Positions 1-18,415 of a DNA stretch of 64,000 nucleotides are shown piece by piece. The stretch comes from an uncultured Paracoccaceae bacterium (GTDB lineage Bacteria > Pseudomonadota > Alphaproteobacteria > Rhodobacterales > Rhodobacteraceae), in assembly GCA_947498645.1 (NCBI GenBank), contig CANMKS010000001.1, forward strand, positions 1,960,032 through 2,024,031, read 5' to 3'. Numbering within the stretch: position 1 is the first letter of the stretch; each line of letters begins with the position of its first letter. The position numbers were made by a program, and so were the translations under genes. The notes beneath the pieces were generated by a model, which saw nothing but the letters and a program-made list of their open reading frames with translations, was not told the origin of the DNA and did not search any database.

Positions 1-72
1 TTCACCAAAGATGATATCGTGCTTGATGCGTTCGTATGTGCTGGACCCAACTGTGGGTGCAGTTTGTGACAT
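1..72 (-). CDS. GntR-family transcriptional regulator, N-terminal fragment
   Basis: Reading the minus strand from an ATG at 72 gives 24 codons before the window edge: MSQTAPTVGSSTYERIKHDI and onward. The segment YERIKHDIIFGE is the start of the winged-helix domain of GntR regulators, where Tyr-x-x-I/L-x-x-x-I-x-x-G-x precedes the HTH. A purine-rich AAGAGG lies about 8 nt upstream of the ATG. The gene diverges from the catabolic operon that begins at 231, so it probably controls it. The effector-binding domain lies outside the window, so the subfamily (FCD or UTRA) cannot be told. Confidence 0.72.
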   Translation of the reverse strand, partial: MSQTAPTVGSSTYERIKHDIIFGE

Positions 73-113
73 GCCAAGCCTCTTGGATGATGTGTTTTGC
101 AGGTGATAGCATG

Positions 114-126
114 ATTATCCGATATT
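114..126. promoter_or_regulatory. candidate GntR operator, distal half of divergent promoter region
   Basis: The core TATCCGATA (116-124) is a palindrome about C120, and A114/T126 also pair. It matches the centre of the perfect palindrome at 1285-1301, which shares TATCCGATA. It lies between the divergent GntR gene and the Gfo/Idh gene. Assignment to the GntR protein is inference from position and repetition. Confidence 0.4.
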
Positions 127-157
127 CCTCAATACTGGATAAAATAGGCAAATATAA

Positions 158-175
158 AAAATATCATATATTATT
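158..175. promoter_or_regulatory. candidate GntR operator, proximal site
   Basis: AAAATATCATATATTAT starts with the same half-site AAAATATC as the 1285-1301 palindrome; the right half is degenerate. It is followed by the word TATTGCGAA (172-180), which also follows the 1285 palindrome (1310-1318). The shared arrangement suggests a duplicated promoter-operator module. Confidence 0.35.
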
Positions 176-230
176 GCGAATCTGCTGAACTCTGCTAGCG
201 TGCCATCGAGTTGAAGCGATGAGGGGCCGT

Positions 231-1286
231 ATGGGGCAACCAATTAAACTCGCCGTTGTGGGCGCCGGCCTCGTTGGGCAACGTCATATCGCAGCGATCG
301 AGCGTGTCGAAGGCGTTCAGCTTACCGCTGTTGTTGAGCCCGGCCCGACAGCGCAGAGCGTCCCCGTCTTCAAAAGTCTGGCCGAGATGTTCGAGCGCAC
401 GTCTGTTGACGGTGTCGTGCTGTCTACGCCAACGCTTTTGCATGTGGATGGTGGGATGGAATGTGTCACACATGATGTACCCGTCCTGATCGAGAAGCCG
501 TTGGCGGCATCGGCAGATCAAGCAGAAGGCTTGATCGACTTCGCGCAACAGCGCGGTGTTCCGATCCTTGTCGGCCATCACAGACGTCATAACCCGATCA
601 TTCAAAAGTCAGCGGGGCTGATCAAAGACGGAGCGATTGGGCAAGTGCGCGCAGCACAGGTCACGTGCTGGTTCTACAAACCTGACGACTACTTTGACGT
701 GGCGCCCTGGCGGAAGAAAACCGGCGCGGGGCCGATTTCTGTCAACCTTGTCCATGACGTTGATCTGATGCGCCATTTCCTTGGTGAGGTCGTCACCGTT
801 CAGGCCCAGATGGCCCCCTCTATGCGCGGTTATGAAAACGAAGACCTGGCCGCTGCCGTGCTTCGGTTCGAAAGCGGTGCTGTTTGTACAATCACCGTTT
901 CAGACAGCGTTGTGTCGCCCTGGAGTTGGGAGCTGACATCGCGCGAATACCCAATTTATCCGGCGACGAACGAATCCTGTTACTTGATCGGCGGATCCGA
1001 GGGGGCGTTGTCGATCCCCGATATGCGACTTTGGCAGCATGACGGCGGCACAAGCTGGTGGAACCCGATCAAGGCAACAGCGATGCCGGTCAGTTCCTCC
1101 GACCCGCTTATCAACCAGATTGCGCATTTCGAAGAGGTCATTCGCGGAAAGGCCGAACCTTTGGTCAACGGCGAAGAGGGGCTCAAGACCTTACGTGTTG
1201 TCGAGGCGATCCAAAAAGCTGCGATGACGCAAAAACTGATCCATCTCGGCGCGTTACAGGAGGAATCCACCACAGCTGCCGAATAA
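231..1286 (+). CDS. Gfo/Idh/MocA-family NAD(P)-dependent oxidoreductase
   Basis: 351 aa from ATG 231. An ATG at 219 is also in frame, but 231 is preferred because GAGGGG lies at a good distance before it and the family normally starts just before the Rossmann strand. The N-terminus shows the dinucleotide motif VVGAGLVGQRH. An EKP motif at about residues 87-89 carries the catalytic Lys, and VHDVDLMRHFLGE supplies the usual Asp/His near the active site. The family oxidises a hydroxyl of sugars, cyclitols or related acids with NAD(P). It is the first gene after the divergent GntR regulator and is followed by a TRAP transporter, so it probably performs an early oxidation of the imported substrate. 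The substrate cannot be told from sequence. Confidence 0.88.
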   Translation: MGQPIKLAVVGAGLVGQRHIAAIERVEGVQLTAVVEPGPTAQSVPVFKSLAEMFERTSVDGVVLSTPTLLHVDGGMECVTHDVPVLIEKPLAASADQAEGLIDFAQQRGVPILVGHHRRHNPIIQKSAGLIKDGAIGQVRAAQVTCWFYKPDDYFDVAPWRKKTGAGPISVNLVHDVDLMRHFLGEVVTVQAQMAPSMRGYENEDLAAAVLRFESGAVCTITVSDSVVSPWSWELTSREYPIYPATNESCYLIGGSEGALSIPDMRLWQHDGGTSWWNPIKATAMPVSSSDPLINQIAHFEEVIRGKAEPLVNGEEGLKTLRVVEAIQKAAMTQKLIHLGALQEESTTAAE

Positions 1287-1301
1287 AATATCCGATATTT
1301 T
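1285..1301. promoter_or_regulatory. perfect 17-bp palindrome before dctP, candidate GntR operator
   Basis: AAAATATC-C-GATATTTT is a perfect inverted repeat with 8-nt arms and a single central base, overlapping the stop codon end of the oxidoreductase gene and 91 nt before dctP. Related half-sites occur at 114-126, 158-175 and 6886-6902, each before a transcription-unit start in this cluster. This suggests a second regulated promoter for the transporter genes. Confidence 0.55.
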
Positions 1302-1391
1302 GTAAAATCTATTGCGAAATTAGGAAAATGAGGCATTAATCTGCCGCACAACCAGCCCGGAGGGGCATTACAAACGTCTGGGAGGACACCA

Positions 1392-2399
1392 ATGACACTG
1401 AATTTGACACGTCGCCTTGCGATGGCCGCCATGGTCGCAGCAGGCACTTTCGCAGGAACCGCTTCTTTCGCTGACGGCCATGCCATCCAACTGCGGATGT
1501 CGACATCTGGTTCTGAAACAGATGCGCGTTCTGTCGCCCTGGCCGAGGTTTTCGGCCCAGCGGTTTCCGGCTTTGCGTCTTACGAGCCAAGCTATAACGC
1601 GACGCTTTTTGACCAAGGCACAGAGCTAGACGCAATCAGCCGTGGCAACCTAGAGATGTCGATCACCTCTGCACAGGAACTGGCACAGTTCTTCCCAGAG
1701 TTTTCGATCTTTGCAACCGGCTATGTTCATCAGGACGCCGCGCATCAGGTCCGTGTATTCAACGATCCACTGATGGACCCGTTCAAAGCGAAGGTCGAAG
1801 AAGAGCTTGGCGTAAAGCTGCTGTCCGTCATGTATCTTGGTCGTCGTCACGTAAACCTGCGTCAGACACGTGAAGAGCTGGATGTGCAGACACCTGCGGA
1901 CCTCGCCGGGGTAAACTTACGTATGCCGGGCACAGACGCATGGCAGTTCCTGGGTGCGGCATTGGGTGCATCCCCGACGCCAATGGCCTTCTCAGAGGTC
2001 TACACCGGTTTGGCAACAGGCGCAGTTGACGGTCAGGACAACCCGCTGCCAACTGTTGTGGACCGCAAGTTCTACGAAGTTACAAAGCAGATCGCGCTGA
2101 CATCGCACCTTGTTGACCTGAACTACATCGCGATTTCCGCTGAGACCTTCAACAGCCTGACACCAGAACAGCAGCTGAAAGTTCAGACAGCCGCAGATGC
2201 GGCCGCGTCTGTTGGCCGTCTGCGTCAGCTTGAACTGGAAAACAGCCTTGCAGCCTTCATCGAAGAAAACGGTGTTGAGGTATATACACCTGATACGGCC
2301 GCATTCCGCGAGCACGTGCAGGCCCAGTATGTTGGCAGCGAATTTGCAGCAAGCTGGCCAGAGGGTGTGTTGGAACAGATCAACGCACTTGGTAACTAA
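1392..2399 (+). CDS. dctP: TRAP transporter substrate-binding protein, DctP family
   Basis: 335 aa with a signal peptide (residues 1 to about 27, basic start, hydrophobic core, ending near SFADGH). GGGAGGACACC before the ATG is a strong ribosome site. The sequence follows the DctP fold; VNLRMPG contains the conserved Arg that in this family pairs with the substrate carboxylate, and the PMAFSEVYTGLATGAVDGQDNP segment is typical of the second lobe. It captures a carboxylated substrate in the periplasm and delivers it to the DctQM membrane complex encoded directly downstream. The conserved Arg predicts an acidic substrate; its identity is unknown. Confidence 0.92.
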   Translation: MTLNLTRRLAMAAMVAAGTFAGTASFADGHAIQLRMSTSGSETDARSVALAEVFGPAVSGFASYEPSYNATLFDQGTELDAISRGNLEMSITSAQELAQFFPEFSIFATGYVHQDAAHQVRVFNDPLMDPFKAKVEEELGVKLLSVMYLGRRHVNLRQTREELDVQTPADLAGVNLRMPGTDAWQFLGAALGASPTPMAFSEVYTGLATGAVDGQDNPLPTVVDRKFYEVTKQIALTSHLVDLNYIAISAETFNSLTPEQQLKVQTAADAAASVGRLRQLELENSLAAFIEENGVEVYTPDTAAFREHVQAQYVGSEFAASWPEGVLEQINALGN

Positions 2400-2425
2400 A
2401 GGCCAGAACCAGCGAGAGGCACATA

Positions 2426-3028
2426 ATGAGAAATTTCTTCAAGTGGGTCTCTCGTATCTCTGACGCAATCGCAGCCACAATGTTGGCTGCGATTTTCTTT
2501 ATTTTTCTACTGCAAATCGGGTCGCGTTATGCGCCCCAGATTGTGGGTTACTTTGGCCTTGCCGAACCTTTCCCGATCCTCGCATCCATCAAGCCACTAG
2601 GCTGGACGCTGGAGTTGATCGCGATCCTGTGGGTTTGGGTCATCTTCTTCAGTTGCGCGTTTGTGGTCCGCGAGTATGACCATGTAAAATTCGATATTAT
2701 CTACCTGTCGGTATCGCGCCGTGTGCGCACGATCTTTGCCATCATTTCGGCGGTCGCGATTGTCGCTGGGATGCTCTACGCCTTTTTGCCGACTTGGGAC
2801 TACATCGACTGGATGAAGATCCGCAAAACCTCGACAGTGCGGAACCCGTTCACGGGCGACAAAATCCCGCTGCGCACGATCTTCTCTGTCTACGGCGCCT
2901 TCATGCTGGTTGTTGCGGCCCGCTACGCTTGGCTGGCCATTGATACCTACCGGTGGGGGCCACCCAAGACCGAGCTTGAGGTTGTGCTGGAAACCGAAGC
3001 GGCAGCAGAGAAGGAGCACAAGTCATGA
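2426..3028 (+). CDS. dctQ: TRAP transporter small permease, DctQ family
   Basis: 200 aa with about four hydrophobic segments (around residues 11-30, 55-80, 100-125, 145-170). The layout and length fit the small membrane subunit of TRAP transporters, here slightly long because of a charged C-terminal tail. It starts 26 nt after dctP and its stop overlaps the dctM start (ATGA at 3025-3028), giving translational coupling. The family scaffolds the large subunit in the inner membrane. Confidence 0.88.
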   Translation: MRNFFKWVSRISDAIAATMLAAIFFIFLLQIGSRYAPQIVGYFGLAEPFPILASIKPLGWTLELIAILWVWVIFFSCAFVVREYDHVKFDIIYLSVSRRVRTIFAIISAVAIVAGMLYAFLPTWDYIDWMKIRKTSTVRNPFTGDKIPLRTIFSVYGAFMLVVAARYAWLAIDTYRWGPPKTELEVVLETEAAAEKEHKS

Positions 3029-4320
3029 GCTTTGAACTCCTCTCCATGCTGATCACCCTGTTCTTTCTTGCAGGTATCGGTACGCCAATTGGCTATTCGA
3101 TTTTGCTCGCCTCGGTCGTTTACCTTGGGTTTGCGGGGCTTGATGTTGCCTTGGCAGGCGAGAAAATCCTGCAAGGCTTTTACAAAAGCGCCATTCTGCT
3201 TGCTGTGCCGCTGTTCATCGTTGCCGCTAACATCATGAATGCAGGCTCCATCACGGATCGCTTGTTGAACTTCTGCGTCGCAGTTGTTGGTCGTTTCAAA
3301 GGGGGGCTTGGGCACGTCAATGTGGTCGCGTCGCTGATATTCTCGGGCATGTCCGGTTCTGCCGTTGCTGACGCGGCAGGCATCGGAAAAATCATCATCT
3401 CCATGATGACGCGCGACGGGCGCTATTCGCGGGGATATGCCGCGGCCATCACGGCCGCCTCTGCCACGATAGGCCCGATTATACCGCCCTCTATCCCGAT
3501 GGTGCTGTATGCGCTGGTCTCGAATGCGTCTATCGGCGCGCTGTTCCTGGCGGGTATCTTGCCCGGCCTGATCATGGGCGTCGTTCTGATGGGCATGAAC
3601 GGATACCTTGCCCATAAACGCGGGTTTGCTGTGGAAGAGGCCGTTCCCCTGAAACAGCTGCCGCGCGCAACGGCCAATGCTTTTCCCGCGCTTTTGATGC
3701 CGGTCATCTTGCTCTACGGCATTTATGGCGGCGTCACGACACCGACAGAAGCTGCCGCTGTGGCCGCCTTCTATGCCCTTTTGCTGGCCGCGATGTTCTA
3801 CCGCGCAATCTCGCTCAGGGCGCTTTATCAGGTCTTTGTGGATAGCGCCCGCTCTTCTGCCGCAGTGGGCATCGTGATCGGGGGTGCATTTATCCTCAAC
3901 TACATCGTGATCACCGAACAGATCCCGCAAGCGATCTCGGCCTTCCTTGGCGAGGCAGATATCAGCCCGCTGATGTTCCTGATCATGGTGAACCTGCTGA
4001 TCCTGCTGTTGGGCTGTGTGCTGGACGCGACAACGATCATCCTTGTGATTGTTCCGCTGTTCATTCCAACCTGCGAGGCTTTGGGCATTGATCTGGTGCA
4101 TTTTGGCGTGCTGGTCGTGGTCAATTCCATGATCGGGCTGATCACGCCGCCCTATGGTATTCTGCTGTTCGTGATTAACGCCGTCACAGATATTCCGCTG
4201 CGCGAGATCATTTCCGAGATTTGGGCCTTTCTTGTTGTGTTGATCGGGGCATTGATCCTGATGATGCTGTCGCCCGGTCTTGTTCTGTGGCTGCCGCGTC
4301 TGCTGGGTTATCAGGGCTGA
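3025..4320 (+). CDS. dctM: TRAP transporter large permease, DctM family
   Basis: 431 aa, almost entirely hydrophobic, with the dense helix and hairpin pattern of DctM. Motifs such as FSGMSGSAVADAAGIG and the ATIGPIIPPSIPMV segment are family hallmarks (first and second half substrate/Na+ sites). It is coupled to dctQ by a 4-nt overlap, and its stop overlaps the start of the next gene (TGATG at 4318-4322), tying transport to catabolism. It is the Na+-coupled translocation subunit. Confidence 0.94.
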   Translation: MSFELLSMLITLFFLAGIGTPIGYSILLASVVYLGFAGLDVALAGEKILQGFYKSAILLAVPLFIVAANIMNAGSITDRLLNFCVAVVGRFKGGLGHVNVVASLIFSGMSGSAVADAAGIGKIIISMMTRDGRYSRGYAAAITAASATIGPIIPPSIPMVLYALVSNASIGALFLAGILPGLIMGVVLMGMNGYLAHKRGFAVEEAVPLKQLPRATANAFPALLMPVILLYGIYGGVTTPTEAAAVAAFYALLLAAMFYRAISLRALYQVFVDSARSSAAVGIVIGGAFILNYIVITEQIPQAISAFLGEADISPLMFLIMVNLLILLLGCVLDATTIILVIVPLFIPTCEALGIDLVHFGVLVVVNSMIGLITPPYGILLFVINAVTDIPLREIISEIWAFLVVLIGALILMMLSPGLVLWLPRLLGYQG

Positions 4321-6065
4321 TGCTGACGATCCCAACGCATGTTGTTCCGGGTGATCTGCGGGAAAAGTTGCGCGTGATTGCCAAGTGTGGGTTTGAGGCG
4401 ATTGATCTCAGTCTGACCGATGTTGCCCAATTTGACGGGGATCTTCCGGAACTGGCTGATCTGATTGCGGATGCGGGGCTGGCAATTGCCTCTGTGGGCC
4501 CATTGCAGGTTGGGGCGACACCCAATGTGATCAATGCGAAACTCAGGATTGCAAAAGAACTGAAAGCCGACCTGCTTGTCGTCGCAGTTGCGGATACCGC
4601 ATTGCCTGATTTTGAACCCCAAGCAGGTGTTCGTGTGGCGTTTCAACCGACGCGGATCGTCGAGGACGTCGTGACGGCCATGGTCACAGAACGGAATGAT
4701 CCGCAGATCGGCCTGGCCCTCAATGCCTTTGCTGTCCTGGGCGACGGCTCGCGCCCTGCGCGGCTGCGCGATCTGGACGGCGCGCGCGTGTTTCATGTGG
4801 CCCTGTGGGACGGGCCACAACAGCCGATGTTGCCGGGGCAGGGCACACTGAATTTGGGCGGCCTGGCCCGTGTCCTTGTGCGGGCAGGTTATCAAGGGCC
4901 ATGGTCCGTCGGTGCAACACCAGAGGGGCCTGATACGGTGCGCAATGCCTATCGGTCACTAGTCACGGCCCTGTCGGACGCTGGCATGAATGAACCGTTG
5001 TTGCGCAACGCGACGCCAGCATTGCCCGCAAAAGTGCCGGCCAGAGGTTTTGAGTTTATCGAATTTGCTGTGGATGCAAAGACCGCAGCGGAACTGGAAC
5101 GCACGCTGACGGCAATGGCGTTTCGCAGAGAACGCAAGCATCTTTCCAAGAATGTCACGCTTTGGCGGCAAGGTGCGGCCAATATTGTGATCAATCAGGA
5201 AGGATCGGGCCACGCAGGTCAGGCCTTTGCAGATCATGGGCCTTGCGTGTGTGACATGGGGCTGCGGGTACAGGACGCGGCGGAAACGGTTGCGCGGGCC
5301 AAGGCGCTTGGCACACAGGATTTCACCCAGTCGGTCGGATTAGGAGAATTGGACATTCCCGCCATTCGCGGTGTTGGTGGCAGTGTCATTCATTTCATTG
5401 ATGAGCAATCCGACTTGCACCGTGTCTGGGATATCGAATTTGAACCTGTCGCACGGACGCAGGCCGTGCCGCCCGCAGGGCTGCGCCGCATTGATCATGT
5501 CGCCCAGACCATGCGTTATGATGAGATGCAAAGCTGGCTGCTTTACTATCTTTCGACATTTCAGATGAGCAAAACACCAATTGTCAACGTCGCTGATCCT
5601 TCGGGCATCGTCCGCAGCCAAGCGATTGAAAGTCCAGAAGGCGAAGTCCGCCTGAACCTGAATGGTGCCGCGGATGCACAGACGCTGGCAGGGTCGTTTG
5701 TGTCGGGTCGGCCCGGGGCAGGGGTGCAGCATATCGCGTTTCAGACAGATGATATCTTTGAAACCTCTGCACAGTTGGAAACTGCTGGTTTTGCCCGTTT
5801 GGCGATCCCGCGGAATTACTACGCAGATACACAGGCCGCATTTGGCCTGGACGATGCAACAACAGCAGCATTGCAAGACCATAGTATCCTGTATGATCAG
5901 GATGAGGCCGGCAGCTACTTTCAGCTTTATGGGCAAGCGATTTTTGACGGTTTCTTTTTTGAAGTCGTCCAACGAAAGGGGCGCTACGCAGGATATGGCG
6001 CCCGCAATGCGCCGATCCGTCTGGCGGCGCAAACCCAGACACGCAAACTCAAAGGTGCCGCATGA
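4320..6065 (+). CDS. fusion of degenerate dehydroshikimate-dehydratase-like TIM barrel and HPPD-like VOC dioxygenase
   Basis: 581 aa from ATG 4320, which overlaps the dctM stop; the reading frame is open further upstream but that part lies inside dctM. Residues 1-225 resemble the sugar-phosphate isomerase/3-dehydroshikimate dehydratase barrel, and residues 243-565 resemble 4-hydroxyphenylpyruvate dioxygenase, the QuiC-type arrangement. In the barrel the four metal-ligand positions look substituted by motif alignment: Gln109 for Glu, Asn135 for Asp, Ala161 for Gln/His, Gly198 for Glu, and a loop before Gln109 seems shortened. In the C-terminal half the iron triad appears intact: His393 (IDHVAQ), His471 (GVQHIAF), Glu548 (FFFEVVQR). 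I infer a dead or structural N-terminal domain and a possibly active VOC dioxygenase. It overlaps the next gene by 4 nt. Confidence 0.78.
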   Translation: MLTIPTHVVPGDLREKLRVIAKCGFEAIDLSLTDVAQFDGDLPELADLIADAGLAIASVGPLQVGATPNVINAKLRIAKELKADLLVVAVADTALPDFEPQAGVRVAFQPTRIVEDVVTAMVTERNDPQIGLALNAFAVLGDGSRPARLRDLDGARVFHVALWDGPQQPMLPGQGTLNLGGLARVLVRAGYQGPWSVGATPEGPDTVRNAYRSLVTALSDAGMNEPLLRNATPALPAKVPARGFEFIEFAVDAKTAAELERTLTAMAFRRERKHLSKNVTLWRQGAANIVINQEGSGHAGQAFADHGPCVCDMGLRVQDAAETVARAKALGTQDFTQSVGLGELDIPAIRGVGGSVIHFIDEQSDLHRVWDIEFEPVARTQAVPPAGLRRIDHVAQTMRYDEMQSWLLYYLSTFQMSKTPIVNVADPSGIVRSQAIESPEGEVRLNLNGAADAQTLAGSFVSGRPGAGVQHIAFQTDDIFETSAQLETAGFARLAIPRNYYADTQAAFGLDDATTAALQDHSILYDQDEAGSYFQLYGQAIFDGFFFEVVQRKGRYAGYGARNAPIRLAAQTQTRKLKGAA

Positions 6066-6862
6066 CCGATGATGCCGATGCAATCCGCGCGTGGTGGCGC
6101 ACATCCATCATTGACATGGAACCCGGCAAGATCGCGTTTCGCGGGCACAGGGTTGAAGACCTGATTGGCAATGTGTCCTTTCCCCAGATGATCTGGCTGA
6201 TGACCGTTGGCCATTTGGCCTCAGCTGAAGAAGCCGCATTGCTGGAGGCCGCTTTGGTTGCGGGTGTCGATCATGGCCCGCAAGCGCCATCCATCGCAGC
6301 CGCCCGCATGACAGCGACCTGCGGGGTGGGGCTGAACAATGCAATGGCGAACGGTGTGAACATGCTGGGCGATGTGCACGGCGGTGCCGGAGAGCAATGC
6401 GCGGAGCTGTATTATGATATCGCAAGACGGATTGATGCTGGGGCCAGCTTGAAAGACGCCGTTCAAGCCGGCCTGGACCAGTGGCGCGCAGCGCATGGCA
6501 AGATTGTCAGCGGTTTTGGACACCGGTTCCATAAACCGGTTGATCCGCGCGCGCCGCGTTTGATGTCATTGGTGCGCGATGCTGCGCAGGCGGGAACCGT
6601 CACTGGTCGCTATGCCGAGATCGGAGAGGCGGTGCAGGCCAACCTGAACCAAAAGCACCCGCTCGCGATGAATATCGACGGCGCAACAGCCGTCATTTTC
6701 TGCGAGTTGGGTTTCCCGGCACCTTTGTCACGGGGGCTGTTCTGCCTGTCTCGCTCTGTCGGCATTCTGTCACATGCATGGGAGCAGATGCAGCAGGGCG
6801 GGCGCAACAAGGGGCCGATGCCACCTGCATATCTTCCAAAATACGAACCTGAGCCGCAGTGA
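6062..6862 (+). CDS. citryl-CoA lyase / citrate-synthase-like protein (single domain)
   Basis: 266 aa, much shorter than citrate synthase (about 430) and close to the stand-alone citryl-CoA lyase or ATP-citrate lyase C-terminal domain group. The catalytic triad of the superfamily can be seen: His106 (LGDVHGGAGE), His154 (GFGHRFHKPVDPRAP) and Asp206 (AMNIDGATA). Such enzymes cleave or form the C-C bond of a 3-hydroxy-3-carboxyacyl-CoA, giving an acyl-CoA such as acetyl-CoA and a 2-oxo acid. The start overlaps the stop of the fusion gene (ATGA). Between an HPPD-like protein and an acylating aldehyde dehydrogenase it may cleave a pathway-specific CoA ester; that is inference. Confidence 0.82.
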   Translation: MTDDADAIRAWWRTSIIDMEPGKIAFRGHRVEDLIGNVSFPQMIWLMTVGHLASAEEAALLEAALVAGVDHGPQAPSIAAARMTATCGVGLNNAMANGVNMLGDVHGGAGEQCAELYYDIARRIDAGASLKDAVQAGLDQWRAAHGKIVSGFGHRFHKPVDPRAPRLMSLVRDAAQAGTVTGRYAEIGEAVQANLNQKHPLAMNIDGATAVIFCELGFPAPLSRGLFCLSRSVGILSHAWEQMQQGGRNKGPMPPAYLPKYEPEPQ

Positions 6863-6885
6863 GATCACAAAACCATCTAATTCAT

Positions 6886-6902
6886 AAAATATCATAGATT
6901 TT
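6886..6902. promoter_or_regulatory. candidate GntR operator before the second enzyme unit
   Basis: AAAATATCATAGATTTT repeats the AAAATATC half-site of the 1285 palindrome. Ten bases later, AATATGATA is the reverse complement of the TATCATATT word near 161-171. It lies in the 91-nt gap between the citryl-CoA-lyase-like gene and the TIM-barrel gene, in a markedly AT-rich patch, suggesting an internal promoter under the same regulator. Confidence 0.38.
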
Positions 6903-6953
6903 TGAATACATAATATGATACTGCTACACGCAGAGATTATGAGGTGATTCAAA

Positions 6954-7853
6954 ATGCCAGATCAAGATGGGAACCCGCTCTATTCCCTTGCGCATCTCAC
7001 CCTGATCAACGCGACCGCGCCTGAGCTGATCTATATCGCCGCGCGTGCGGGCTATGACGCGGTCAGCCCGCGGTTTATCCAGATGAACGTGCCCGGTGAG
7101 TTCCATGAAAGCCCGGTGGACAAGGCGATGGTTTCGGCCACCAAGACGGCGCTGAAGACGACCGGGCTGAAGGTTTTGGATGTTGAACTGGCCCGCATCA
7201 CCGAGGACTGCGACCCAAGGAGTTTTGAACCCGCCTGCGCGCTGGGCGGCGAACTTGGTGCAACCCGCATGATCATGTCTGCATGGACGCCCACGCGGGA
7301 TGATCGCAACTTCATCGTCGATTGCTACGCCGAAACCTGTGAAATTGCAGCGCCTTACGGCCTGTCGGTTGATCTTGAGTTTCCCAGCTTCAGCCGCCTG
7401 CGGACGCTTGATGAAACGCTCGACATTGTGCGTGCCGCTGATCAACCAAACGCAGGCATTTTGGTTGATACACTCTATCTGCACCTGTCCCGCGTTGACC
7501 TTGCCGAACTTTTGCATGTTCCGGGTGCACTGCTGAATTTCCTGCACATTTCGGACGCTTTGCCTGGGATCGCGGACACACGCGAAGGCATGATCCAACT
7601 GGCCCGCGATGCCCGCCTTTATCCAGGCGAGGGGTGTATTGATTTTGCTGGGGTCATCGAACGGATGCCGCCGGTGGATTACTCCATCGAATTGCCAAAC
7701 CAGTCGCGTGTCGCAGAGCTTGGCTATGAAGAACACGCACGTCGCTGCCTGATCCACGCCAAACGCACCTTTGGGTCCGTCCGGTCACAGCGCCGTCACC
7801 ACCCTATTCCTCCACAAGAAAGTACAATGACAGATGGCCAAAGAGCTTACTGA
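6954..7853 (+). CDS. sugar phosphate isomerase/epimerase-family TIM-barrel protein
   Basis: 299 aa, start ATG 6954 with GAGGTGA upstream. It belongs to the xylose-isomerase-like TIM-barrel group (IolE/IolI/Hyi relatives). In contrast to the fusion protein upstream, the metal-ligand positions look intact: Glu in SVDLEFPSFS, Asp in GILVDTLYLH, His in NFLHISD, and Glu in YSIELPN. An isomerase, epimerase or dehydratase acting on an alpha-hydroxy-keto substrate is expected. The last 20 nt overlap the start of the aldehyde dehydrogenase gene in another frame, a sign of tight coupling. Substrate unknown. Confidence 0.82.
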   Translation: MPDQDGNPLYSLAHLTLINATAPELIYIAARAGYDAVSPRFIQMNVPGEFHESPVDKAMVSATKTALKTTGLKVLDVELARITEDCDPRSFEPACALGGELGATRMIMSAWTPTRDDRNFIVDCYAETCEIAAPYGLSVDLEFPSFSRLRTLDETLDIVRAADQPNAGILVDTLYLHLSRVDLAELLHVPGALLNFLHISDALPGIADTREGMIQLARDARLYPGEGCIDFAGVIERMPPVDYSIELPNQSRVAELGYEEHARRCLIHAKRTFGSVRSQRRHHPIPPQESTMTDGQRAY

Positions 7854-9243
7854 AGAAGACCGCCAATTGACCGCCGACATGATTGCGCGCGGCCGCAAGG
7901 CAATGGCTGCCATTGAAGACTGGTCGCAGGCAGAATTGGATCGCCTTGCACAGGCGATTGCCTGGTACGCAGGCAATGAAAAGACATTCACGCGGCTTGC
8001 CCATCAAGGTGTTGATGAAAGCGGTATTGGGGATCGTGAAGGGCGACCCGCGAAGCGCTTCAAAATCCAGATGGTGCTGCGCGATGTGCTGCGCACACCG
8101 TCAACGGGCGTTGTTGAGGTTGATGAGGCCAAGGGTCTGGTCAAATACGCCAAACCGGCTGGTGTGATTGCGTCCCTCATTCCGATGACAAACCCTGCGA
8201 TGACGCCGCCAGTGACGGGCGTTGCCGCCGCCAATGCGCGCAACGCTGTCATTTTCTCGCCGCATCCGCGCACGGCGCAGACCACATGGGAAATGACCGA
8301 AGTGATGCGCGCAGCCTGCCGCGCCGTTGGTGCGCCAGCCGATTTGTTCCAATGCGTCCGCTACCCATCCATTCCAATGACCCAACATCTGATGGAAGAA
8401 TGCGATTTGACGCTGGCAACCGGTGGTAAGCCTATGGTGAAAGCGGCGTATTCTTCTGGTCGCCCGGCCTATGGGGTTGGGGCGGGCAATTCTTCCATCG
8501 TGATTGATGAAACGGCGGATATCGAGATCGCCGCGCAGAACACGCGGATATCCAAGACTTCCGATTTCGGATCGGGCTGTTCAGCTGACGGCAACATCAT
8601 CATTCAGCAGTCGATCTATGACCGGATGGTCAAGGCGCTGGAGGCCGAGGGCGGGTATTTATGCAATGCTGACGAAACGGCTCTGCTTGAGAAAGCAATG
8701 TGGGATGAAAAGGGCAATCGCACGTTCTCGACCATCGCCTGCAAGCCGCAGCAGACGGCAGATGTGGCCGGGTTCAGTATTCCCGATGATCGCACGTTCC
8801 TCATGGTCGATAACCACGGCGCGATTGGCCCAGAACACAAGTTCAGCAAGGAAAAGTTGACGACTGTGATGGCGCTTTATCGGTTTGATACATTTGAAGA
8901 CGCGCTCGATACGGTCCGTGCTATCTACAACACCGGTGGCAAAGGCCACTCTTGCGGTATCTACAGCCACAGTGACGACAATATCGACGCACTGGCACGG
9001 GTTGCACCTGTCAGCCGCATGATGGTGCGCCAGCCGCAGTCCAAGGCGAATGCCGGCGCCTGGACCAATGGGATGCCCATGACCTCCAGCCTTGGTTGCG
9101 GGATCTGGGGCGGCAACATCACCAATGAAAATGTCACCATGAAACACATGATGAACTACACATGGGTCGCACGGCCCATCGCAGAGGACCGCCCGTCAGA
9201 GCAAGAGCTGTTCGGCGAATTCTATGGTCAGGAGGTCGCGTAA
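7834..9243 (+). CDS. acylating aldehyde dehydrogenase, SauS/AdhE-N-terminal-like
   Basis: 469 aa. It has the aldehyde dehydrogenase fold of the CoA-acylating branch: PAGVIASLIPMTNPAMTP near residues 108-126, nucleophile Cys249 in DFGSGCSADGN, and the C-terminal TNGMPMTSSLGCGIWGGN block that also occurs in the sauS-like gene at 21573, where the nucleophile is also residue 249. It should convert an aldehyde, CoA and NAD+ to an acyl-CoA. The start lies inside the preceding gene and the stop overlaps the next start (TAATG). The likely aldehyde comes from the ThDP enzyme or the aldolase encoded downstream; substrate not determinable. Confidence 0.87.
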   Translation: MAKELTEEDRQLTADMIARGRKAMAAIEDWSQAELDRLAQAIAWYAGNEKTFTRLAHQGVDESGIGDREGRPAKRFKIQMVLRDVLRTPSTGVVEVDEAKGLVKYAKPAGVIASLIPMTNPAMTPPVTGVAAANARNAVIFSPHPRTAQTTWEMTEVMRAACRAVGAPADLFQCVRYPSIPMTQHLMEECDLTLATGGKPMVKAAYSSGRPAYGVGAGNSSIVIDETADIEIAAQNTRISKTSDFGSGCSADGNIIIQQSIYDRMVKALEAEGGYLCNADETALLEKAMWDEKGNRTFSTIACKPQQTADVAGFSIPDDRTFLMVDNHGAIGPEHKFSKEKLTTVMALYRFDTFEDALDTVRAIYNTGGKGHSCGIYSHSDDNIDALARVAPVSRMMVRQPQSKANAGAWTNGMPMTSSLGCGIWGGNITNENVTMKHMMNYTWVARPIAEDRPSEQELFGEFYGQEVA

Positions 9244-11036
9244 TGGATGGAACGAAAATTACCGGAAAGACAGTTGCGGAACACATTGTTGATTTTCTGC
9301 AAAGACGCGAGGTGAAACATGTTTTTGGCCTGTGCGGCCATACAAACATTGCGGTTCTGGCGGCCCTTGCGGATAGCCCGATTGATTTCGTCACTGTGCG
9401 CCACGAACAAATCGCAAGCCATGCCGCGGACGCCTATGCACGGGTGACGGGGCGCGCGTCCGTTGTGCTGTCTCACCTGTCTCCTGGGTTGACGAACTGC
9501 GCGACGGGCGTGGCCAATGCGGCACTTGATTGCATTCCAATGGTCGTGATCGCGGGCGATATTCCCACGCATTACTACGGCAAGCATCCGCATCAGGAAG
9601 TGAACCTGCACGCAGATGCGGCGCAATGGGAAATCTATCGGCCCTTTGTCAAACGCGCCTGGCGCGTTGACCGTGCCGACTTGATGGCCGAGATCCTGGA
9701 AAAGGCGTTCCATCTGGCCGAAAGCGGCCAGCCCGGACCGGTTCTGGTCAATGTGCCCATGGATATCTTCAGCGAGGTGATCCCATCCGACACTTTTGAC
9801 CGGGTCGCCAAAAATACGAAGACTCTCGTCAAGCCATCCATGGATGATGAGACAGCCCGCCAGATTGTGAGTTGTCTGGCTGCGGCCCAAAATCCCGTCG
9901 CCTATGTGGGCGGCGGGATTTTGTTGGCGCAAGCATCCGAGGAACTGGATGCATTTGCGTCCCATATGGGCCTGCCCGTTGCGCATTCACTGATGGGCAA
10001 GGGCGCGCTGCGCGATGATCATCCGCTGGTGATGGGCATGACCGGTTTCTGGGGCACGGAACTTGTCAACCAAACCTGTCTGAACGCGGATGTCGTCTTT
10101 GCCGTGGGGACACGGTTCAAGGAGGCGGATTGCTCAAGCTGGTATCCCGGTTACACCTTCAACATCGGTGCAGATGGCAACGACACAAAGGTCATCCATA
10201 TCGACATCGAGCCGCAAGAGATCGGGCGTAACTACCCTACCGAGATTGGCGTTGTCGCCGATGCAAAAGCAGCCCTGCGTGTGCTGATCCGTGTGGCAAA
10301 GGAAATGCATCCGGATGGCTTTGCCCGCAAAGAGAAAAAGGCAGAAATTGCGGCATTCCGCGAGACGTTCAAAGCATCGAACGCCCAGATGCAAACCTCT
10401 GCGGCTTTCCCGATGATGCCCGAGCGCATTCTGGCTGATACACGCATTGCACTTCCTGATGATGCCATCATCACCACAGATGTGGGCTGGAACAAAAACG
10501 GGGTGGGGCAGCAATTTGATATCCTCACACCGGGCTCCATCCTGACGCCGGGTGGCTTTGCCACGATGGGCTTTGGCCCGCCGGCCGCGATTGGCGCAAA
10601 GCTGGCGGCGCCAGAGCGTGTGGTGCTCAGCCTAGTGGGTGACGGTGGGTTCGGGCAGAACCCGTCGATGCTTGCCACAGCGGTTGAGTTGAACCTCGGC
10701 ATCATCTGGCTGGTCATGAATAACAATGCATTCGGCACAATCGCAGGTTTGCAAAAGGCGCACTACGGCCTGACCTATGGCACGACTTTCCCGGGGAGTG
10801 CCCAAGCGCCTACAAACGGTCCCGGCTATGCCGAAATCGCGCGGGCTTACGGGGCCGAAGGTATGCGCGTCACCTCAGCCGATGCGTTGCTTCCAGCATT
10901 GCAGTCCGCGATTGCCAGCGGAAAGCCGACAGTATTGGATGTACCCATGATCAATAACCCGACACCAACAACAGGGCATTGGAACATCCTTGATATCTAT
11001 TCCCCAGACAAGGATGTCAGCCACGTCTCGACCTAA
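9243..11036 (+). CDS. thiamine-diphosphate-dependent enzyme, acetolactate-synthase-like
   Basis: 597 aa from ATG 9243, which overlaps the previous stop. The activating Glu55 is in TVRHEQIASHAADAYARVTG, and the ThDP/Mg2+ motif GDGGFGQ through NNN is at about residues 465-493. The domain order (PYR, central, PP) fits decarboxylases, carboligases and C-C hydrolases of the ILVB superfamily. It is not the sulfoacetaldehyde acetyltransferase Xsc: the N-terminal and phosphate-site sequences differ. In this operon it could decarboxylate a 2-oxo acid to the aldehyde used by the acylating dehydrogenase, or cleave a 1,2-diketone as IolD does. The choice is open. Confidence 0.87.
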   Translation: MDGTKITGKTVAEHIVDFLQRREVKHVFGLCGHTNIAVLAALADSPIDFVTVRHEQIASHAADAYARVTGRASVVLSHLSPGLTNCATGVANAALDCIPMVVIAGDIPTHYYGKHPHQEVNLHADAAQWEIYRPFVKRAWRVDRADLMAEILEKAFHLAESGQPGPVLVNVPMDIFSEVIPSDTFDRVAKNTKTLVKPSMDDETARQIVSCLAAAQNPVAYVGGGILLAQASEELDAFASHMGLPVAHSLMGKGALRDDHPLVMGMTGFWGTELVNQTCLNADVVFAVGTRFKEADCSSWYPGYTFNIGADGNDTKVIHIDIEPQEIGRNYPTEIGVVADAKAALRVLIRVAKEMHPDGFARKEKKAEIAAFRETFKASNAQMQTSAAFPMMPERILADTRIALPDDAIITTDVGWNKNGVGQQFDILTPGSILTPGGFATMGFGPPAAIGAKLAAPERVVLSLVGDGGFGQNPSMLATAVELNLGIIWLVMNNNAFGTIAGLQKAHYGLTYGTTFPGSAQAPTNGPGYAEIARAYGAEGMRVTSADALLPALQSAIASGKPTVLDVPMINNPTPTTGHWNILDIYSPDKDVSHVST

Positions 11037-11045
11037 GGATCCATC

Positions 11046-11810
11046 ATGAAAAACCCAAAGAACCAGTTCAAGGCGGCGCTGCACGCAGGACAGCGCCAAC
11101 TTGGCATCTGGAACACGATTGGTGGAAATACGGTTCCAGAGCTTTTGGGTGGGGCCGGTTTTGACTGGGTTTTGGTAGATTGTGAACATGCCGCGATCGA
11201 AACGATCGAGGTGTTGCCTGCATTGCAAGCCATAGGACAATACCCCGAAACCTCGGCTGTCGTGCGGCCGGCGGCAAATGATCCCACGCTTTTCAAACGC
11301 ATTCTCGACATGGGGGCGCAGACATTGCTTGTGCCTTATGTGCAAACGGCAGAAGAGGCCGCAGCAGCTGTTCACGCCATGCGCTATGGCCCCCACGGCA
11401 TGCGCGGCATGGCTGGAATGACGCGTGCGACACGTTACGGGCAGGTGGACAACTACTTTCAGGGCGCGTGGGATGAACTTTGTCTGGTCGTGCAGGTCGA
11501 GACCGTCAAAGGGTTAGAGAACTTGGAGGCCATTGCACGAACCGATGGCGTGGACGCGGTTTTCATCGGTCCTGCGGATCTCAGCGCCAGCATGGGGTTG
11601 GCTGGCCAGATGGATAATCCTGACGTTGATGCCGCTGTGACAAAAGCCATCAACGACCTGGTCCGGTTAGGGGTGCCTGCGGGCGTGATGGCCCTGGAGG
11701 CAGATGTTGCCAAGCGGCATCTGGAAAATGGTGCGACGTTTGTTGCCTTGGCCGTAGATCTGGTTCTCTTGGCTGATGCTGTAGCTGGTGTGAAAAGACG
11801 CTTTGGATAG
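11046..11810 (+). CDS. HpcH/HpaI-family class II aldolase
   Basis: 254 aa, typical for 4-hydroxy-2-oxoheptanedioate and 2-keto-3-deoxyglucarate aldolases. The catalytic His is in VLVDCEHAAIE; metal ligands are the Glu in VQVETVKGLEN and the Asp in FIGPADLSASMG. The family cleaves a 4-hydroxy-2-oxo acid to pyruvate and an aldehyde. AAGGATCC precedes the ATG, 9 nt after the ThDP gene. As last gene of the operon it probably performs the final chain cleavage to central metabolites. Confidence 0.9.
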   Translation: MKNPKNQFKAALHAGQRQLGIWNTIGGNTVPELLGGAGFDWVLVDCEHAAIETIEVLPALQAIGQYPETSAVVRPAANDPTLFKRILDMGAQTLLVPYVQTAEEAAAAVHAMRYGPHGMRGMAGMTRATRYGQVDNYFQGAWDELCLVVQVETVKGLENLEAIARTDGVDAVFIGPADLSASMGLAGQMDNPDVDAAVTKAINDLVRLGVPAGVMALEADVAKRHLENGATFVALAVDLVLLADAVAGVKRRFG

Positions 11811-17386: not shown

Positions 17387-18415
17387 CTACGACACAGCTG
17401 CACTGGATCTCCGTTGAATAAACTCTGGTGCGCAGTTCAAACTCCCAAAATGGCCCGAAGCAGGATCAATGATTGCAGAGACCAATGCGTTGCCCGCTTC
17501 TTGTCCTATGCGACGTGCAGGCAGCCGCACAGTTGTCAATGCAGGTTCGATTTCCGAGGAACCCTTGAAATCGCCAATGCCAACAACCGTGACATCATCC
17601 GGAACCGAAAGCCCGCTTGCAGTCGCCCCGTAAAGCGCGCCGGTCGCAAGAATATCGTTGCCGCAGATCAGCGCCGTAGGGCGATCATCCTGAGTGAAAA
17701 GCGCCCTTGAATCCTGCTTTGAGTCAGAGATGCTGTAAACGGTTTCTAGCATCCATTCCTCTGGAACCTCGATCCCGGACGCGCGCAATGTATCAAGAAC
17801 GATTTCCCGCCTCGCCAATGCGCGATCATTCCCGTTGGTTGGGGGAAACATGCAGGCAATACGGCGATGGCCAAGGGCAAGGACATGCTCTGCGATAAGC
17901 TTGCCCGCTTGTTCGTTATCCGCCCCGATTGATGGAAATCGTGAGGTCGCAGAGTAGTTCCACATCAAGACGCAAGGAATTTCCTGACTGTCGAGCAGTT
18001 GAAAGACAGCCTCGTCATGGTCCAACCCGGTCAGGACAACGCCATCAACGCGATGTTCAAGGAACTTGCGCAAGATCGCATATTCGCGTTGCAGGTCATA
18101 TCCATGCGACGCCAGCAGAATGGTAAAACCTTGTGTCGAGACTGTATCGGAAAAGGCCTGAACCACCTCTGCAAAGATTGCGTGGTCCAAGGTTGGCACC
18201 AGAACACCAATGGTTCCAGACCTGATCCCATGAATGGTTTGCGCGGCCCGATTGCGGATGTAACCTGTCCTGCGCACCGCGGAATCGATCCTCTTGCGGG
18301 TGGCGGATTTCAACAGCTCTGGGTGGTTGAAATAGCGTGACACTGTCGATGGGGACACGCGCGCCGCTTTTGATACGGTGAAAATATCTGCTTTTTTCGG
18401 CTTACTATCAGACAC
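17387..18415 (-). CDS. LacI-family transcriptional regulator of the adjacent tct-sau genes
   Basis: 342 aa. The N-terminal HTH (FTVSKAARVSPSTVSRYFNHPELL) and the hinge with GTIGVLVPTLDHAIFAEVV are standard for LacI proteins; the periplasmic-binding-like core with QDDRPTALICGNDILA and DDVTVVGIGDFKGSSEIEPALTTVRLP follows. It is transcribed divergently from tctABC-sauS-sauT with a 99-bp gap containing an inverted repeat, so it most likely represses that operon in the absence of its ligand, perhaps sulfoacetate or a derived intermediate. The effector is inferred from context only. Confidence 0.92.
   Translation of the reverse strand: MSDSKPKKADIFTVSKAARVSPSTVSRYFNHPELLKSATRKRIDSAVRRTGYIRNRAAQTIHGIRSGTIGVLVPTLDHAIFAEVVQAFSDTVSTQGFTILLASHGYDLQREYAILRKFLEHRVDGVVLTGLDHDEAVFQLLDSQEIPCVLMWNYSATSRFPSIGADNEQAGKLIAEHVLALGHRRIACMFPPTNGNDRALARREIVLDTLRASGIEVPEEWMLETVYSISDSKQDSRALFTQDDRPTALICGNDILATGALYGATASGLSVPDDVTVVGIGDFKGSSEIEPALTTVRLPARRIGQEAGNALVSAIIDPASGHFGSLNCAPEFIQRRSSAAVS

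Follow-up and report, generated by a model that had tools for sequence, protein, structure and literature searches.

The window analysed here is a 64,000-nucleotide stretch (positions 1,960,032-2,024,031 of a 3.24-Mb contig) from the 3.38-Mb, 99.99% complete genome of an uncultured Paracoccaceae bacterium. At one end it carries a catabolic operon of ten tightly packed genes, all on one strand (219-11810), delimited by annotation of the window and domain searches. We propose, at a probability of roughly 0.55, that this operon serves the import and breakdown of quinate, or of a closely related cyclitol carboxylate by way of 3-dehydroquinate, without aromatisation. The first-pass annotation had read the region as a carboxylate catabolic operon with a GntR gene and import by a tripartite ATP-independent periplasmic (TRAP) transporter; we agree, and its domain assignments are upheld by our searches. 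It also described nine packed, overlapping genes: the packing and overlaps stand, and the count becomes ten. In order along the DNA, these are:

219..1286, plus strand: Gfo/Idh/MocA dehydrogenase, proposed cyclitol-acid dehydrogenase (best NCBIfam match inositol 2-dehydrogenase IolG, 117 bits against a cut-off of 355)
1392..2399, plus strand: DctP, TRAP solute-binding protein, a close relative of PDB 4PF6 (Roseobacter denitrificans RD1_0742)
2426..3028, plus strand: DctQ, TRAP small permease (domain search)
3025..4320, plus strand: DctM, TRAP large permease (domain searches)
4320..6065, plus strand: QuiC/QsuB-like fusion of a dehydroshikimate-dehydratase domain without metal ligands and a 4-hydroxyphenylpyruvate dioxygenase (HPPD)-like VOC domain with a His/His/Glu triad
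6062..6862, plus strand: citryl-CoA-lyase-family protein (CCL), proposed homocitryl-CoA lyase (family model, structure match, conserved residues)
6954..7853, plus strand: TIM-barrel (AP_endonuc_2) enzyme (TIM), proposed IolE/QuiC-like dehydratase converting 3-dehydroquinate to a 1,2-diketone (E/D/H/E site)
7834..9243, plus strand: CoA-acylating-type aldehyde dehydrogenase (ALDH), proposed homocitrate-semialdehyde dehydrogenase (nearest structures, conserved Cys)
9246..11036, plus strand: thiamine diphosphate (ThDP) enzyme, proposed ring hydrolase (G-H-x-N motif common to IolD)
11046..11810, plus strand: HpaI-family aldolase, accessory (Pfam HpcH_HpaI)

Neighbouring genes overlap by 4 bp (DctQ/DctM), 1 bp (DctM/QuiC-HPPD, with the fusion starting at the ATG at 4320), 4 bp (QuiC-HPPD/CCL) and 20 bp (TIM/ALDH), and ALDH is separated from ThDP by 2 bp, given a ThDP start at ATG 9246. 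Two spacers are longer, 105 bp at Gfo/DctP and 91 bp at CCL/TIM, and each contains a palindrome.

In the proposed pathway, a dehydrogenase (Gfo/Idh in the window, an AroE-family protein in many relatives) would oxidise quinate to 3-dehydroquinate. TIM would then eliminate water between the two ring carbons adjacent to the ketone, the type of reaction carried out by IolE and dehydroshikimate dehydratase. Dehydroshikimate has a C1=C2 double bond and 3-dehydroquinate does not, so that a cyclic 1,2-diketone would result instead of protocatechuate. Next, the ThDP enzyme, acting like IolD, would hydrolyse the bond between the two carbonyls to yield HOOC-CH2-CH2-C(OH)(COOH)-CH2-CHO (homocitrate semialdehyde), which the acylating ALDH could convert to homocitryl-CoA and CCL could split into acetyl-CoA and 2-oxoglutarate. 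The predicted balance is C7 = C2 + C5, with no CO2 lost, no O2 consumed and two NAD(P)H made. A check of the formulae by hand gives C7H12O6 for quinate, C7H10O6 for 3-dehydroquinate, C7H8O5 for the diketone and C7H10O6 for its hydrolysis product, and the corresponding acid, C7H10O7, equals 2-oxoglutarate (C5H6O5) plus acetate (C2H4O2). Citryl-CoA lyases and 3-hydroxy-3-methylglutaryl-CoA (HMG-CoA) lyases both act on tertiary 3-hydroxyacyl-CoA thioesters, and homocitryl-CoA, derived from a tertiary C(OH)(COOH) next to CH2-CHO, is the kind of substrate expected for either fold. The putative regiochemistry of ring cleavage, which places the aldehyde next to CH2-C(OH), is the one that such a lyase would require. 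What is observed is the gene content with its conservation and key residues, the replacements at two steps and the linkage to 3-dehydroquinate enzymes; the substrate, all intermediates, this regiochemistry and any part played by the HPPD-like domain are inferred. An earlier outline of oxidation, isomerisation, C-C cleavage and conversion of an aldehyde to an acyl-CoA was largely right, although it lacked the substrate class, and its single C-C cleavage is better read as ring hydrolysis by the ThDP enzyme followed by a second cleavage by an acyl-CoA lyase.

The operon is not confined to this genome. A contig scan with the ThDP protein retained the best 80 loci from at least 579 confirmed relatives, and therefore represents the nearest relatives, not a random sample; three records from a plasmid collection (Azoarcus L003, Streptomyces L004 and Nonomuraea L005) bring the set to 83 loci, in which gene presence was scored with identity and length thresholds set by the analyst. 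Most are alphaproteobacterial; two records are titled Gammaproteobacteria (L053, L061) and one SAR324 (L065). ALDH is present in 78 loci, TIM in 72, a QuiC-type fusion or part of one in 67, CCL in 59, an HMG-CoA-lyase-family protein (HMGL) in 12 and a CaiB CoA-transferase in four. HpaI, previously counted as part of the enzyme set, occurs in only nine and is better regarded as peripheral; the window copy passes the cut-off of Pfam HpcH_HpaI and scores 288 bits to TIGR02311 (4-hydroxy-2-oxoheptanedioate aldolase), below the cut-off of 369. Since the core of TIM, ALDH, ThDP and an acyl-CoA lyase is found again in most of the 83 loci, the operon is not a chance assembly. The synteny search suggested by the first-pass annotation therefore recovers a core conserved mainly across Alphaproteobacteria, and chance co-occurrence in one strain is not borne out. 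The ThDP clade itself is rare, with carriers in 5/398 genomes of a phylum sample (all from the family of the window), 15/198 of a family sample and 6/385 of a class sample (three outside the family). All carriers from these samples not already among the 83 provide nine further loci, and all nine encode TIM-ALDH-ThDP with exactly one lyase (seven CCL, two HMGL).

Exclusive replacement is seen at two steps. CCL scores 432 bits to the citryl-CoA lyase family NF004864, above the curated cut-off of 261, and its H106, H154, R163 and D206, presumed catalytic by analogy with citrate synthases, are conserved in 62/62 aligned rows. It has 266 residues, compared with some 370-430 for citrate synthases; among solved structures, citryl-CoA lyase 6HXP matches it best. 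Across the 83 loci, CCL is the sole lyase in 58 and an HMGL-family protein in 11; both occur in one (L004, 37% identity) and neither in 13, eight of which have <3 kb upstream of ThDP, while L061 ends beside QuiC-HPPD. The HMGL-family proteins have HMG-CoA lyase 1YDO as their best solved match and keep the key residues. A parallel exchange affects the preceding step: 77 loci have an acylating ALDH without CaiB, three have CaiB without ALDH (L003, L004, L005), L059 carries both, and neither is present in two truncated loci. The nearest solved relatives of ALDH, 8CEI and 5J78, are acylating, and C249 is conserved in 74/74 aligned rows. The gene before ThDP in Streptomyces (L004) encodes an ordinary aldehyde dehydrogenase, which scores 365 bits to the lactaldehyde dehydrogenase model, under its cut-off; there, oxidation of the aldehyde to the acid and transfer of CoA to that acid may take the place of one-step acylation. 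The Nonomuraea locus (L005) has just a stretch of ~90 residues before ThDP with weak similarity (25 bits) to aldehyde dehydrogenase models. That unrelated proteins swap at two successive steps suggests that these steps are the formation of an acyl-CoA and then its splitting. CCL-family and CaiB genes also occur together, with TTT or DASS transporters and without an operon-type ThDP gene, on plasmids of Ruegeria sp. THAF33 (L006) and Methylobacterium nodulans (L007); these pairs perhaps handle other tertiary hydroxy acids, of the homocitrate or citramalate type, via CoA transfer and lyase.

TIM, to which we assign the dehydration, shows the AP_endonuc_2 fold and a metal-type site of four residues, of which E142, D172 and E246 are present in 59/59 rows and H198 in 56/59. 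The structural neighbours of its model are Lmo2234 (top), IolI, QuiC1 and IolE; we take Lmo2234, from Listeria, to belong to a quinate/shikimate gene cluster. We infer that TIM acts as a dehydratase and not as an epimerase. A second TIM-barrel gene, 37% identical to that of the window, lies ~13 kb from the ThDP gene in Azoarcus (L003 30021-30854), near an IclR regulator. When 22 ThDP proteins were placed in a tree, the 12 from such operons, those of Azoarcus and Streptomyces among them, fell into one supported clade (100/99). The window enzyme has a G-H-x-N motif near its N terminus, as do the aligned IolD copies, and among the six other ThDP proteins of the host only the one grouping with IolD has it. 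The IolD model TIGR04377 (cut-off 715) is not among its 25 best matches, the lowest of which scores 286 bits. Cyclohexane-1,2-dione hydrolase (2PGN), whose active site we presume to be similar, ranks 42nd in the structure search (171 bits) and is not among the 60 matches listed for the N-terminal fragment. The Thioclava pacifica locus (L087 16387-20255) also has inositol genes near the operon, an IolD and a kinase/aldolase fusion, both above cut-off; this IolD copy scores 836 bits to the IolD model, which confirms its label.

The link to 3-dehydroquinate comes from the neighbourhoods. An AroE-family, AroQ or AroD gene lies near the operon in 32/83 loci, and AroE in 3/9 of the further loci; the chance expectation, reckoned from the Aro gene content of the host genome, is ~1 Aro match in 83 loci, a figure that gives the scale only and is not a p-value, since the loci are related. 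These genes in 32 loci point to a substrate route through 3-dehydroquinate. The arrangement of AroE varies: it may stand between the fusion and CCL, or adjoin the TRAP genes on the same strand (L087, whose DctP is 61% identical to that of the window). Directly after ThDP, two type II 3-dehydroquinate dehydratases are encoded in SAR324 (L065), while AroQ and AroE follow it in L086 and AroE and a type I dehydratase in Azoarcus. The genome of the window has one AroQ and one AroE, both elsewhere. In two actinobacteria, pyrroloquinoline quinone (PQQ)-type dehydrogenase genes lie near CaiB/CCL (L004 5176-7332; L005 5505-7646 and 18372-20444); the two copies scanned, one from each locus, match PQQ models for alcohol and glucose/quinate/shikimate dehydrogenases below cut-off.

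The fusion speaks against an aromatic route in the window. The four metal-ligand positions of its dehydratase half read Q, N, A and G when aligned to 5HMQ; all four ligands are lost. They correspond to Glu134, Asp165, Gln191 and Glu239, given as the dehydroshikimate dehydratase active site in PMC7442255. The full EDQE set occurs in 6/66 relatives (L005 and five HMGL-type loci) and the first Glu in 12/66. The His/His/Glu triad of the HPPD-like half is kept in 66/66 relatives, and it is seen in the window fusion. An earlier description of the fusion as degenerate thus applies to the dehydratase half but not to the HPPD half. In Azoarcus, the two halves are separate genes, and the HPPD-like protein lacks the second His in the alignment. 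A fusion in which the dehydratase half is being lost while the triad of the other half persists amounts to a natural separation of the two domains. PMC7442255 leaves the role of the HPPD-like domain of QuiC/QsuB unresolved, its authors proposing oligomerisation, and reports no activity of QsuB towards protocatechuate attributable to the C-terminal domain.

Searches of the host genome point in the same direction. No LigB domain was found and no PcaH match above cut-off; one intradiol Dioxygenase_C domain is present (65 bits), matching the PcaH model at 8.6e-24, below cut-off. The QuiC model NF042435 has four matches (the operon fusion at 334 bits, an HPPD-length protein, the operon TIM and one weak match), none above the cut-off of 1200, a weak test, since a Corynebacterium glutamicum control with QsuB also falls below it, so that a dehydratase elsewhere in the host is not excluded by this search. 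Within the family sample, 8/15 carriers have PcaH above cut-off; the operon occurs with and without it.

Several observations weigh against the proposed quinate route. In the available DNA, 51/83 loci, and the window itself, lack an AroE, AroQ or AroD gene. PcaH is lacking in 7/15 carriers (three of these, G497, G506 and G514, scored by absence from the match list) versus 66/183 non-carriers, hardly more frequently, and the five HMGL-type loci and L005 that retain the full dehydratase site may also make protocatechuate. The lyase is absent from 13/83 loci, with L011, L020, L049 and L078 lacking it within the available flank, and Azoarcus has no annotated aldehyde dehydrogenase within 31.7 kb. 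The best model for ALDH is SauS, sulfoacetaldehyde dehydrogenase (NF047625, 425 bits, below the cut-off of 600). Over its whole sequence, the ThDP enzyme most resembles acetolactate synthases, and it does not group with IolD; kinship with IolD is not supported by a tree, itself with long branches and flagged with warnings, that places the two apart, the motif alone being common. Sugar epimerases match the TIM model as well as or better than IolE (Z 24.4 vs 23.7). The ligand of 4PF6, the nearest solved relative of DctP, is reportedly 3-deoxy-D-manno-octulosonate (KDO), not quinate. The HPPD-like domain, HpaI, and c7, c8 and c13 (type B operons) are assigned to no step, and no homocitryl-CoA paper was found in the open-licence PubMed Central (PMC) literature.

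In window-type operons, the same chemistry (dehydrogenation, dehydration, cleavage of a ring or chain by ThDP, acyl-CoA formation and lysis) might instead serve another ring acid, a reading that we regard as unlikely but worth retaining; candidates are a stereoisomer of quinate, a quinate bearing methyl or ester groups, and an ulosonic acid like KDO. Window-type operons use Gfo/Idh, often without AroE, and two additional Gfo/Idh genes occur in type B operons. DctP is 72% identical to 4PF6 over 292 aligned residues, followed by sialic-acid-binding SiaP proteins, and the pyranose form of KDO resembles quinate in its tertiary C(OH)(COOH), CH2 and two CHOH groups. Against this reading stands the AroE-family gene beside the TRAP genes of L087, a locus with a DctP close to that of the window; moreover, KDO has no tertiary carbinol in its open form and no need for AroE or AroQ. 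KDO as the substrate, considered for the closeness of DctP to 4PF6, leaves the AroE/AroQ/AroD genes unexplained; it is kept as a rival.

The remaining alternatives fare much worse. Classical degradation to protocatechuate with extra genes is very improbable: the QuiC-like fusion, the Aro genes, the few complete EDQE sites and the carriers with PcaH would suit it, but the window fusion lacks all four ligands, 60/66 relatives lack the full set, the host has no LigB or PcaH above cut-off, and ALDH, ThDP and the lyase would be left unexplained. We give scarcely more credence to a biosynthetic operon in which a carboligating, acetolactate-synthase-type ThDP enzyme builds and the lyase family acts as a synthase. 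Its appeal lies in the overall likeness of the ThDP enzyme to acetolactate synthases and the citrate-synthase fold of CCL, whereas TRAP import, the GntR gene and the acylating dehydrogenase suggest catabolism, and the short length of CCL and its match to 6HXP favour a lyase. Least probable of all is a sulfonate pathway around sulfoacetaldehyde with a SauS-like dehydrogenase and an Xsc-like ThDP enzyme; the SauS score, 286 bits of ThDP to Xsc, and TauE-type and sulfate-exporter genes near the Azoarcus cluster speak for it, but both scores are below cut-off (676 for Xsc), and neither the Aro linkage nor a citrate-synthase-type lyase fits. ThDP decarboxylation with malyl-CoA-type cleavage was set aside on paper, as it leaves both the dehydratase and the AroE/AroQ genes without a use.

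Upstream of the operon lies a divergent regulator gene, and palindromes that may serve as its operators recur within the operon:

1..72, minus strand: 5' end of a GntR/FCD regulator gene, divergent from Gfo; the remainder lies outside the window (whole gene L002 11410-12072)
113..127, no strand: palindrome, possible GntR operator 1 (3 mismatches, before Gfo)
159..173, no strand: palindrome, possible GntR operator 2 (3 mismatches, before Gfo)
1286..1300, no strand: exact palindrome AAATATCCGATATTT, possible operator 3 (between Gfo and DctP)
6887..6901, no strand: palindrome, possible operator 4 (3 mismatches, between CCL and TIM)

A scan of the 64-kb window for AAATATC(C/G)GATATTT with ≤3 mismatches found five matches versus 0.74 expected, a number reached in 0/100 shuffles. 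Four (113, 159, 1286 and 6887) are in the operon and the fifth, at 18382, is outside it, which bears out an earlier claim of recurrent palindromes at three internal points, namely before Gfo (two copies), at Gfo/DctP and at CCL/TIM. Among 27 loci hand-picked from the 83 for GntR, Gfo or a similar layout, and scanned with no shuffle control, 21 have the palindrome at one or more of these or equivalent spots; it was not found there in L026, L061, L065, L074, L076 and L087. Upstream of the GntR gene (L002 3331-11317) lies a separate cluster with glutamine synthetase, aldehyde dehydrogenase, iron alcohol dehydrogenase and solute-binding protein (Pfam) and, by eye, ABC transporter genes; it is apparently unrelated to the operon. 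The type B operons have two extra Gfo/Idh genes and, in most, c13 (21 loci; L072 5765-6436), a conserved protein of ~224 residues encoded between them that is cupin-like by eye and has no Pfam or NCBIfam match under the thresholds applied.

Compared with known systems, the operon resembles myo-inositol catabolism (IolG, IolE, IolD) in using Gfo/Idh, TIM-barrel and ThDP proteins for its proposed first three steps. Unlike that system, its ThDP clade is separate from IolD, its import is by TRAP, and an acylating aldehyde dehydrogenase and an acyl-CoA lyase stand in place of the later Iol steps. Quinate and shikimate are otherwise known to be degraded via protocatechuate or by anaerobic reduction. 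With the protocatechuate route (QuiC1 of Pseudomonas putida, QsuB of Corynebacterium glutamicum), the operon shares the two-domain fusion and the Aro genes of 32 loci, and it differs in the missing metal ligands, the lack of LigB and PcaH above cut-off, and the added ThDP, ALDH and lyase. CCL belongs to the family of 6HXP with its conserved His/His/Arg/Asp, but its context, with an acylating ALDH, points to a homocitryl-CoA-like substrate. HMG-CoA lyase (1YDO) is the counterpart of the proteins that replace CCL in HMGL-type loci; it is absent from the window operon, and the substrate proposed for these proteins is homocitryl-CoA. Cyclohexane-1,2-dione hydrolase shares with the operon enzyme its ThDP family and the hydrolysis of a cyclic 1,2-diketone proposed here, but scores only 171 bits.

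Quinate combined with citryl-CoA lyase, or such a combined pathway, was not found in the open-licence PMC literature, searched partly by titles and abstract starts. Nor did these searches return a one-for-one match to a characterised pathway, in line with the earlier remark that no described pathway with this content was known. On this evidence, the parts belong to known families, and the combination and the homocitryl-CoA route are new. The broader claim, that this is a further quinate/shikimate route by hydrolytic opening of a diketone via homocitryl-CoA, in which two unrelated lyase families and two thioester routes serve the same steps in different lineages and the HPPD-like domain of QuiC/QsuB is a working enzyme, is one to which we give a little less than even odds.

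If correct, the quinate route would constitute an entire pathway, independent of oxygen, for a metabolite common in plants, leading into the tricarboxylic acid cycle in about five steps without loss of carbon. It would assign substrates to a citryl-CoA lyase subfamily, an acetolactate-synthase-like clade, a TIM-barrel clade and an acylating dehydrogenase that now have family-level annotation. For dehydroshikimate dehydratases, the function of the HPPD-like domain would become open to direct test, and quinate-type substrates would be predicted for this TRAP transporter of marine roseobacters.

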